Part shown: piece by piece, positions 1,916 to 13,840 of the stretch
How positions within the stretch are numbered: the stretch's first letter is position 1
Layout of the letters: every line of letters begins with the position of its first letter
Source: Thermodesulfovibrionales bacterium
GTDB lineage: Bacteria; Nitrospirota; Thermodesulfovibrionia; Thermodesulfovibrionales; Dissulfurispiraceae
Length of the DNA: 45,854 nucleotides
NCBI GenBank assembly: GCA_026415695.1
Contig: JAOAGP010000006.1
Location: forward strand, 1 to 45,854
Direction: 5' to 3'
Made by a program: the position numbers and the translations under genes
Notes under the pieces: model-generated
Seen by the model: the letters and a program-made list of their open reading frames with translations, nothing else
What the model was told of the DNA's origin: nothing
Database searches by the model: none

Positions 1916-1950
1916 GTTACAAAATAATGTTGCAAAATAGAGTTGCAAAA
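1916..1950 (-). repeat. Three direct repeats with a 13-bp period
   Basis: On the minus strand the 9-mer TTTTGCAAC occurs at 1950-1942 and 1937-1929, with a one-base variant TTTTGTAAC at 1924-1916. Unit starts are exactly 13 bp apart. They sit just downstream of the candidate -10 at 1973-1968, where a repressor operator or an early leader element would lie. The repeats are seen directly; the function is unknown. Confidence 0.6.
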
Positions 1951-1967
1951 CAGATACCATCTTATAA

Positions 1968-1973
1968 ATTATA
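1968..1973 (-). promoter_or_regulatory. Possible -10 element of the porin promoter
   Basis: A perfect TATAAT occurs on the minus strand 246 bases before the GTG start. At 17-base spacing the -35 would be ATTTAT, which is poor. A TTGACG lies at 2008-2003, but it is 29 bases away, too far for a normal sigma-70 pair. An activator-dependent promoter is possible. Confidence 0.35.
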
Positions 1974-2086: not shown

Positions 2087-2491
2087 CTAAACCTTTTTAC
2101 TTACCAGTGAAATTCTTGTTGTAGCCCTTTGAAGTGCTGCGTTTGCCCTCGCAAAATCGATATTTTCTTGTTGTCTCAGCCTTTCTTCAGCCCTTTTCTT
2201 TGCTTCCATTGCCCTTTCAATATCAATGTCTTCAACTTTCTCAGCACTGTCTGCAAGGACTATCACCTTATCAGGTGATACCTCTGCATAACCAGTGTTT
2301 ACAAAGAGATAATCAGTCTTTGAGCCAGACCTAACTTGCATTGAGCCTATCTTAAGAGTTGTGATGAGATTTGCATGACCTGCCAAGACACCAAATTCAC
2401 CTTCTGAACCTGTTGCAGTGATCTCATCAACATCCTCACTAAGTACTACACCGTGTGGGGTTACAACCTCAAGCCTTATCTTATTTTCCAT
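2087..2491 (-). CDS. atpC: ATP synthase F1 subunit epsilon
   Basis: The 134-residue product has the usual length and layout. An N-terminal beta-sandwich carries the family signature (EFGVLAGHANLITTLKIG, residues 32-49), and a C-terminal helical hairpin follows from about residue 88 (ERAMEAKKRAEERLRQQ). Epsilon sits on the gamma stalk, joins it to the c-ring and can inhibit ATP hydrolysis. It is the last gene of the cluster, 18 bases after atpD. Confidence 0.95.
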   Translation of the reverse strand: MENKIRLEVVTPHGVVLSEDVDEITATGSEGEFGVLAGHANLITTLKIGSMQVRSGSKTDYLFVNTGYAEVSPDKVIVLADSAEKVEDIDIERAMEAKKRAEERLRQQENIDFARANAALQRATTRISLVSKKV

Positions 2492-2509
2492 TTTTTCTCA
2501 CCTCAGTGG

Positions 2510-4823
<2,314 letters not shown>

Positions 4824-4856
4824 TATCTATTTACCCCTCTCATTGCTTTATGAAAC

Positions 4857-6365
4857 TTACACTACAAATGTTTTCTTAAATTCTGCAATTGCCGCCAAAA
4901 GCCTTTCCTTGATTGAGTCATCAATCGCCTTCTTTTCTTTAATATCGTTCTTTATATCGGGCTTCTTATTAACAATAAAGGACAAAAACTCTGCCTCAAA
5001 ACGCTTTAAGGATTCTACTGGAAGGTCGTCTAATTGTCCCTGTGTCCCAGCAAATATTATCATGACTTGGTCTTCCATTGCCATCGGCACATATTGGTCT
5101 TGTTTCAGAATCTCAACCATTCTACGGCCTCTTTCAATCTGAGCCATCGTTGCCTTGTCAAGGTCTGCACCAAACTGTGCAAAGGCGGCAAGTTCCCTAA
5201 ACTGTGCAAGGTCCAATCTCAATGTTCCAGCAACCTGCTTCATAGCCTTGGTTTGTGCGGCACTTCCAACACGGCTAACTGACAGACCAACATTAACTGC
5301 AGGTCTTATACCTGCATAAAAGAGGTCTGGCTCAAGGTAAATCTGACCGTCTGTAATCGAAATGACATTTGTTGGGATGTATGCTGACACATCGCCTGCT
5401 TGTGTTTCAATGATAGGAAGTGCGGTAAGTGAACCTCCACCTAATTCATCGCTCATTTTCGCCGCCCTTTCAAGTAACCTTGAATGCAGATAGAAAACAT
5501 CACCAGGATATGCCTCTCTACCGGGTGGCCTTCTTAGTATCAAGGATAATTGTCTGTATGCAGCTGCCTGTTTGCTTAAATCATCATATATAATCAAGGC
5601 ATGTCTTCCATTGTCTCTGAAATACTCACCAATAGCACAGCCTACATAAGGTGCGATATACTGCATTGGAGCAGGCTCACTTGCAGTAGCAGAAATGACA
5701 ATAGTGTGGGCCATTGCACCGTATTCTTCTAATGTCTTGATAACACGGGCAACACTTGCCCTCTTTTGACCTACTGCAACATAGATACAGATGACATCAC
5801 CACCTTTTTGGTTTATGATGGCATCAATTGCGATTGCGGTCTTACCTGTCTGACGGTCACCGATGATTAACTCTCTCTGACCCCTTCCGATAGGTATCAT
5901 AGCATCAATTGCCTTAACACCTGTCTGTAGAGGTTCTTTAACAGGTTGCCTATCAACGATACCGGGTGCGACAACATCAACTATTCTCGTTTGTTTTGCT
6001 GTAATCGGGCCTTTGCCGTCAATAGGCTGACCGATAGCATTTAAAACCCTTCCAACCATCTCATCGCCCACAGACACGGACATAATCTTGCCCGTCCTTT
6101 TTGCGATATCCCCCTCTTTGATGAGCTTGTCATCACCAAATAAGACTGCACCAACGATGTCTTCTTCAAGGTTGAGAGCCATCCCAAACACACCATTTGG
6201 GAACTCGATCAACTCTGAAGCCATGCAATTGTCTAATCCATAGACCCTTGCAATTCCATCACCAACCATTACAACAACACCTACCTCGCTGACATCTACC
6301 CTCTTTTCGAAGTCAGCGATCTGCTTTTTTAATTGCTCACTAATCTCTTCTACCTTAATCTCCAT
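4857..6365 (-). CDS. atpA: ATP synthase F1 subunit alpha
   Basis: The 502-residue product has its P-loop GDRQTGKT at residues 169-176, the same position as in well-studied alpha subunits. It is followed by the conserved [12 protein letters not shown] and [20 protein letters not shown]-like segments (here LSLILRR). Alpha binds nucleotide non-catalytically and forms the hexamer with beta. The N-terminal region (residues 1-25) that contacts delta is present. The gene follows atpH after three bases. Confidence 0.98.
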
Positions 6366-10566: not shown

Positions 10567-12012
10567 TTAATGCCTGATTGTTCTCTTTCTTATATTTTGT
10601 GGTGGAATCTTTAATTCTTCTCTGTATTTAGTAACTGTCCGTCTTGCGATTGAAATCTTTTTACTCTTAAGCACATCAGCGATAGCCTGATCACTCAATG
10701 GTTTGGATGGATCTTCTGCCTCAATGACCTCTTTTATCAGTGCCTTCACCACGGTTGATGATACAACACCATCCTCACCACTAAGCGAGTTGCTAAAAAA
10801 ATATCTAAATGGAAAAACACCATGACTACATGCAAGGTATTTATTTGATGTTACTCTGCTAACAGTGCTTTCATGAAGATTAACATCCTCTGCTACATCC
10901 TTTAGGTTGAGAGGTTTTATGAATTGAGTGCCATGGTCAAAGAAATCCCTCTGAAATTTCAGAATGCTTTCTGATACCTTGTATATTGTCCTGTTTCTCT
11001 GGTCAAGACTCTTAGTAATATCAATAGCCCTTTTCATCTTTTCCTTGAGAAACTCTCTTTCCTCTTTTGACAGCATCTCTTTATTTAGAAGCAGTCTCTT
11101 GTAATTTTCGTTTATTGACAATCTTGGAATGCCTTCGTTGTTTAGGATGATAATATAATCATCCTCATCCTTTTTGATAATCACATCAGGGACAATGTAA
11201 TTGGTTTCAACGGTGGTAAATTGTCTTCCGGGTTTCGGTTCTAATCTCTCTATGATTTTGACTGCTTGTATTACCTCATCAACAGATACATTATGCATCT
11301 TTGCAATGTTTTGATACCGTTTGTTTTGTAAATCATTCAGATTGTCATTTATAATCTTTTGAACAAGTGTGTTTTCAAGTTGCAAAAACTCAATCTGTAG
11401 TAACAAGCATTCTTTAAGATTTCGTGCTCCTACACCAATTGGATCAAAACTCTGCACTAATTTAATTGCCTTTTCAACATCATCGGTAGTCACCTTCATC
11501 ATCTGCGCTATTTCCTCATTTGAGACCCTGAGATACCCGTCATCATCAAGATTACCAATTACTGCCTGTGCAATCTTCTTTGTAACCTCATCAGACCGAG
11601 ACAGTCTTAATTGCCACAAAAGATATTCGTACAAGTCTTGTTTTTTTGCGATAAAGGTCTCAAAGGATGGAGTTTCTTCGCTATCAGGCTCAAAATAGCC
11701 TAAATCCCTACCATCCATTGCCCTTTCTTCAAAGTATTCGTCTTTGCTGAATAAAAGATTTCTTTCAAAATCTATCTCACCGTGTTCATCAAGGTTTTGC
11801 CCGTTATTTACTAACTCGTTAGTCTCTTCAAACTCAAGATCATCACTTGAGTCAGATACCTCCTCCAATAAAGGATTCTCCATTAATTCTTGATTAATCG
11901 TTTGGATTAATTCCAAGTGAGTTTGCTGAAGGAGTTTTATAGCAAGTTGAAGTTGCGGTGTTAGGATTAGCCTTTGAGATAACCTTAAATCTAATCTATT
12001 TTCAAGTGCCAT
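10567..12012 (-). CDS. rpoN: RNA polymerase sigma-54 factor
   Basis: The 481-residue product has region I (residues 1-45, with SQRLILTPQLQLAIKLLQQT), an acidic linker (about 50-110), the core-binding region, an HTH near ESTVSRVTSNKYLACSHG and the RpoN box ARRTVTKYRE close to the C-terminus. Sigma-54 directs polymerase to -24/-12 promoters and needs AAA+ activators, none of which is encoded here. Its ATG overlaps the lptB stop by one base (TAATG). Confidence 0.97.
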   Translation of the reverse strand: MALENRLDLRLSQRLILTPQLQLAIKLLQQTHLELIQTINQELMENPLLEEVSDSSDDLEFEETNELVNNGQNLDEHGEIDFERNLLFSKDEYFEERAMDGRDLGYFEPDSEETPSFETFIAKKQDLYEYLLWQLRLSRSDEVTKKIAQAVIGNLDDDGYLRVSNEEIAQMMKVTTDDVEKAIKLVQSFDPIGVGARNLKECLLLQIEFLQLENTLVQKIINDNLNDLQNKRYQNIAKMHNVSVDEVIQAVKIIERLEPKPGRQFTTVETNYIVPDVIIKKDEDDYIIILNNEGIPRLSINENYKRLLLNKEMLSKEEREFLKEKMKRAIDITKSLDQRNRTIYKVSESILKFQRDFFDHGTQFIKPLNLKDVAEDVNLHESTVSRVTSNKYLACSHGVFPFRYFFSNSLSGEDGVVSSTVVKALIKEVIEAEDPSKPLSDQAIADVLKSKKISIARRTVTKYREELKIPPQNIRKRTIRH

Positions 12013-13801: not shown

Positions 13802-13840
13802 AAAAAAAACAGACCGTTAAGGATGTTACCCTTAACGGTC
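13802..13840 (-). terminator. Rho-independent terminator of the ferredoxin gene
   Basis: A perfect 11-bp stem (13812-13822 with 13830-13840, GACCGTTAAGG) closes a seven-base loop. On the minus strand it is followed by TG and a run of eight T (13809-13802). It stands 25 bases after the ferredoxin stop. Confidence 0.93.

Follow-up and report, generated by a model that had tools for sequence, protein, structure and literature searches.

What do three short repeats, lying in step ahead of a porin gene, contribute to the expression of that gene? The window, by which we mean the whole analysed stretch of 45,854 nucleotides from a Thermodesulfovibrionales bacterium, carries the porin gene on the minus strand (387-1721; 444 aa, GTG start at 1721; Pfam Alginate_exp and Porin_4), and porin matches were obtained in 37 of 40 genomes searched, the window's own counted. 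The upstream regions of these genes have elements that are common to a Nitrospirota order: an enhancer, a sigma-54 promoter, a sigma-70 promoter and a structured leader, all predicted. Comparison shows that the predicted sigma-54 sites are conserved, establishes the motif of the enhancer and how far upstream it lies, and shows the repeat array to be unique and the leader to covary. Immediately upstream of the porin, and on its strand, are ATP synthase genes (2087-6365; epsilon by Pfam, beta, gamma and alpha by eye), and an inverted repeat at about 2050-2080 may terminate their transcript.

The repeats and the predicted promoter they overlap

The original prediction described three minus-strand repeats spaced 13 bp apart, and this description is confirmed. 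Repeat 1 (TTTTGCAAC, 1950-1942), repeat 2 (TTTTGCAAC, 1937-1929) and repeat 3 (TTTTGTAAC, 1924-1916) follow one another at exactly 13 bp, and the copies are already diverging. They form a tandem array, which has no strand, at 1907-1950 (TRF: period 13, 3.3 copies, 83% matches, score 51), the sole array with a score of at least 45 in the 45.9-kb window. The pattern TTTTGYAAC-N4-TTTTGYAAC has two overlapping matches in the window, both exact, compared with an average of 0.04 over 100 window shuffles searched at up to two mismatches, of which one reached 2; that the order of the repeats exceeds chance is thus borne out. The same search of the whole 2.2-Mb assembly, again at up to two mismatches, returned the window's two matches and one two-mismatch pair on contig C46. 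A repressor regulon carrying the same repeats genome-wide was rejected on this count, one extra pair comparing with four matches of a reversed-pattern control.

Conservation upstream of orthologous porins had been proposed as a test of the repeats, and it was not found. The array is absent from the 420-bp upstream stretches of 29 out of 29 relatives, both same-genus genomes included (in two of the 29, L016 and L017, the protein match does not start at the N-terminus), and from 71 of 71 other leader-bearing places, with a single copy of the word in L064; some of the 29 are the same places as in the 72-locus leader set, under different locus numbers.

What is conserved is the predicted promoter beneath the repeats. 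Sigma-54 sites were scored against the consensus GG-N10-GC with TGGCAY and TTGCW context, to which a predicted minus-strand promoter at 1959-1944 conforms (TGGTATCTGTTTTGCA; score 6, p 0.005, from a scan that omitted L016 and L017, whose match does not start at the N-terminus). Given this site, the TTTTGC of repeat 1, with its TTGC element, would be the -12 box, and setting the C of GC at -12 places the predicted start near 1933, within repeat 2; the proposal that the repeats sit at a transcription start therefore holds for the predicted sigma-54 start. By position and form, the site is the counterpart of sites in 55 of the 72 leader-bearing upstream regions. Sigma-54-like sites scoring at least 6 were expected by shuffling in 0.88 of the 72, and 1 was found on the reverse strand; several loci are close relatives, and the rows in these and other locus counts are not independent. 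Many relatives reach 7.5, compared with the window's 6. Within the genus, G001 reads TTGA in place of TTGC at -12 (promoter word TGGCATGTTTATTGAT), and a search of G002 found no sigma-54 site. The genome has a single rpoN gene, which lies inside the window at 10582-11055, some 9 kb from the porin (PF04552, E 9.1e-61), together with 19 matches to PF00158, the domain of enhancer-binding proteins (EBPs).

The repeats were also considered as additional sigma-54 promoters. In copies 2 and 3 the G-pair is not preceded by a GG at ten bases, and a 13-bp period is incompatible with GG-N10-GC; this candidate was dropped. Other sigma-54-like sites in the window lie at 13802 (minus strand, score 7) and 19744 (plus strand, score 6.5), and two loci, L007 and L020, have their sigma-54 site upstream of the porin by more than 500 bp.

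A predicted sigma-70 promoter follows on the minus strand just downstream of the repeats, TTGATT (1914-1909)-18-TAAAAT (1890-1885), with repeat 3 ending 2 bp from its -35 element. The window sequence is weak on its own, matching 9 of 12 consensus bases, a value that about 29% of shuffled segments reach (14.8 of 51). Its place is that of strong TTGACA/TATAAA promoters in relatives: among the 51 of 72 loci taken for this count, 28 score 11 of 12, against 0.2 expected.

The enhancer motif and its reversed match

An unsupervised motif search drew on the 61 of 72 loci with a sigma-54 score of at least 5.5 and more than 100 bases upstream; run on 60 loci, with the window excluded and no position supplied, it converged on a 27-bp motif, TccACAC..TGTTGCAAAAtAGACACA. 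The window's best match to this motif is a predicted enhancer (UAS) on the minus strand at 2039-2013 (ACCACATCGTGTGGTATACAAAATACA), 80 bp upstream of the TGG. It scores 15.0, compared with -3.0 (sd 4.3) for shuffles, and none of 500 shuffles scored as high. A UAS score of at least 10 was found in 54 of the 61 loci: 13 have the motif at -67 to -70, 26 at -76 to -81 (the window, at -80, included), 6 at -89 to -93, one at -100 and 8 at -136 to -162, the first three clusters being about one helical turn apart. G001 has its UAS at -79 from TGGCATGTTTATTGAT, and in G002 the best enhancer-like word scores just 5.0, some 524 bp upstream of the leader match.

This arrangement resembles sigma-54 promoters with an upstream enhancer, such as those served by NtrC, NifA and related EBPs, in its GG-N10-GC core, in an enhancer dyad about 80 bp upstream of that core and in the presence of rpoN and EBPs in the genome. 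It differs in its porin target, in the sigma-70 promoter that follows and in the enhancer word, which has a third half-site ahead of TGTTGC-N6-GACACA and matches no EBP site known to us. A candidate EBP would bind at 2039-2013 and loop to sigma-54 RNA polymerase at TGGTATCTGTTTTGCA, with transcription from near 1933, while the sigma-70 promoter just downstream would provide basal expression, giving a porin promoter region with two conserved start sites. On sequence grounds we consider this sigma-54 and enhancer layout, with repeat 1 as the -12 box, highly probable. An outer-membrane protein gene under sigma-54 would fit the theme of sigma-54 as a controller of the bacterial exterior (PMC3162934); in the available part of that article, the main text does not use the word 'porin'. 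The accessible literature on porins, sigma-54 and this lineage yielded no description of this promoter or of the leader discussed below.

Two routes to the activator and its targets were tried and set aside. Among 40 relatives the enhancer word matched in 10 genomes, nine times in what is by place the porin region and once elsewhere (L108, G037:C1:902449). EBP genes near porins were found in 2 of 20 neighbourhoods (L120 and L133, both of genus g27), 6-7 kb off in stretches of 13-19 kb, in a survey that also took in the window.

On the plus strand the repeated word reads GTTGCAAAA, a portion of the conserved activator motif. One 27-bp copy of this motif takes in repeats 1 and 2; it is a second UAS-like site, at 1932-1958 on the plus strand (GCAAAATAGAGTTGCAAAACAGATACC), oriented opposite to the enhancer and spanning repeat 1, the greater part of repeat 2 and the sigma-54 core. 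The single-stranded or wrapped binding once deduced from the 13-bp period thus need not be invoked. With a score of 14.3 this second site is the second-best match to the motif in the whole window, behind the UAS (the third scores 13.7), and the half-site at 1928-1938 on the plus strand (TGTTGCAAAAT), which is repeat 2 with its neighbours, has the top activator half-site score in the 45.9 kb. At this register none of the other 60 sigma-54 promoters scores above -1.2 (median of all 61, -19.2), from which it follows that the second-site match, as far as sequence scores go, is peculiar to the window's species and does not characterise the promoter class. It is important to point out that the sigma-54 box bases (-12 and -24) contribute 8.5 of the second site's 14.3 bits, which makes the match only partly independent of them, and that its 18-bp core, reached by 4 of 400 region shuffles, belongs to a site spotted post hoc in one genome. 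The half-sites that would pair with repeats 2 and 3 match poorly, with a core score of 5.3 at repeat 2. Overall, the array looks like a species-specific set of activator-like half-sites over a conserved sigma-54 promoter, and thus like an extra control site.

Readings of the repeats

How the array arose and whether it does anything are separate questions from the layout around it. A 13-bp piece around the -12 box would have been copied in tandem in the window's species, and on the other strand the copied word would be the core of the EBP half-site TGTTGCAAAA, so that repeats 1 and 2 would together add an EBP-like site, in reverse orientation, on top of the promoter core. If bound by the EBP, this site would in the simplest case restrain the sigma-54 start when EBP is abundant, as has been proposed for NtrC governor sites. 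We infer both that an EBP and sigma-54 act here and that the EBP binds the reversed site. The governor sites at glnAp2 were reportedly first studied by Atkinson et al. in 2002. In the accessible text of PMC3870243, those of Escherichia coli glnAp2 are low-affinity sites proposed to limit transcription at high activator; they share with the window's putative site a position downstream of the enhancer as extra activator sites, and the window's site differs in overlapping the promoter core, in being reversed and in being known from sequence alone. The result would be a self-limiting switch in which the activator, besides its enhancer, occupies the reversed site that spans the -24/-12 core and the start, and in which high activator shuts the sigma-54 start and leaves the sigma-70 start, the array having arisen by tandem copying of the half-site in the -12 box. 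We put this forward tentatively, as a possibility to which we give a rather low probability.

Neutral slippage is the strongest competing account of what the repeats do, and we rate it above the governor reading, at close to an even chance. On this account tandem duplication of the 13-bp stretch that surrounds the -12 box left repeats 2 and 3 without a function; the likeness to an activator half-site would then be a by-product of the TTGCAA that the -12 box and the motif have in common. This explanation concerns the repeats only and is compatible with the sigma-54 and enhancer layout. The uniqueness of the array to the window's genome among all places examined, the divergence of its copies and the large share of second-site bits supplied by sigma-54 bases all favour it, whereas the rank of repeat 2 as the top-scoring half-site is harder to reconcile with it, as is the failure of the 60 other promoters in the same register, which implies that shared bases alone are insufficient for the match. 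We regard as improbable a further possibility, that a protein on 1950-1916, just upstream of the -35 element, acts on the sigma-70 promoter and either stimulates or obstructs basal transcription. Repeat 3 ends 2 bp from TTGATT, and positions of this kind are used by class I and II activators; relatives with a strong sigma-70 promoter, however, have no repeats there, and the window's own sigma-70 match is weak.

The original prediction had taken a TATAAT next to the repeats as the porin promoter. The hexamer is present on the minus strand at 1973-1968, and TTTATA-16-TATAAT has 10 of 12 consensus bases; combined with the equal spacing, which suits repeated protein contacts, this could indicate a sigma-70 promoter at that place with a separate repressor or RNA-binding protein reading the repeats side by side. 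Against this, promoter-like sites in 1500-2500 are at chance level (3 found, shuffle mean 2.3), the conserved promoters, sigma-54 and downstream sigma-70, lie elsewhere, and the repeats lack conservation. The TATAAT was therefore rejected as main promoter and is probably not that of the porin, the sigma-54 promoter with its -12 box in repeat 1 being favoured, and the combination with a separate reader of the repeats appears very unlikely. Of the two kinds of reader originally suggested, a DNA-binding protein is plausible; a motif in the leader RNA of the sigma-70 transcript is not, since TTGATT/TAAAAT lies downstream of the repeats.

The sigma-54 and enhancer layout predicts a specific porin switch across a Nitrospirota order, with one enhancer word, two promoters, a structured leader and usually one porin per genome, and this predicted switch offers a concrete route to finding the activator. 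A governor role, if true, would mean that slippage can turn a core promoter box into an operator.

The porin leader RNA

The leader between the sigma-70 start and the porin is conserved. In the window it comprises, all on the minus strand, hairpin 1 (GGTTCC-TTT-GGAACC, 1854-1868), a Shine-Dalgarno-like word with no start codon behind it (GGGAGGTGA, 1826-1834; read by eye, with counterparts in relatives), hairpin 2 (CCGCC-TTT-GGCGG, 1756-1768), to which covariation and folding point, and hairpin 3 (GCU-GAA-CUAACC...GGUUAG-GA-AGU, 1720-1749), whose loop and stem contain the Shine-Dalgarno sequence and which reaches into the GTG start codon. A covariance model of the leader gave matches in 69 of the 230 class genomes and in 47 of 295 genomes sampled from the phylum, and among the leader matches listed, all are in the window's order. 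The leader (1720-1768; loci L036-L100) usually occurs once per genome, ahead of a porin: in 69 of 72 places the frame that follows it has a porin match at E of at most 3e-10, the exceptions being L096, L097, where the porin match starts 176 bp further on, and L099.

Across 20 aligned leaders, both partners vary at 8 of 15 hairpin pairs, and pairing is kept in 97% of cells; 0 of 500 shuffles reach the pair values or the covariation score, and slid partners pair in 29-50%. The alignment holds 20 of 28 leaders, L002, L004 and L013 being excluded for insertions in the hairpin 3 loop and L012, L014, L027, L029 and L030 for having no CTGAAC form, and the pair counts therefore lean to fitting rows. 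The window sequence folds into hairpins 2 and 3 if the stretch is taken alone (z -2.14), and for a longer stretch minimum energy favours a different fold over them. In L004, L006 and L013 the start codon is shifted downstream and GGAAGTG is kept in place, which suggests that hairpin 3 does more than hide the start.

The GGAGGTGA word without a start codon was found in 33 of the 51 places that also served for the sigma-70 count, against 0.8 expected. By a wider pattern, a Shine-Dalgarno word is present in 55 of 72 leaders and is followed by a start codon 3-12 nt behind in merely 3 of the 55, on which ground a leader peptide behind GGAGGTGA was rejected; the window's GGGAGGTGAA falls outside this wider pattern and was identified by eye. 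An extended form of the word (AAGGAGGTGAT-like) lies far upstream of the start codon in most leaders, with no reading frame of its own. A 16S-like end, TGGATCACCTCCTT, was sought in the window's assembly, where it was not found, and is present in 2 of 7 relatives searched. The upstream word may be an mRNA stabiliser or a ribosome standby site. Most of these leaders share one feature of a STAB-SD, a 5′-UTR Shine-Dalgarno word that initiates no reading frame, as in that of cry3A according to the available part of PMC4113751; they differ in belonging to Nitrospirota, in the two conserved hairpins that follow and in being known from sequence alone.

No Rfam 15 family matched the leader at its gathering threshold, and a known RNA family was rejected, the weak matches listed being far below gathering scores. 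With its covarying start-codon hairpin and frameless Shine-Dalgarno word, the leader looks like an undescribed RNA element. The long loop insertions in hairpin 3 of L002, L004 and L013 leave both stem halves intact, and right before the leader of L004, L006, L007 and L020 there is coding-like sequence, apparently for a small coiled-coil protein.
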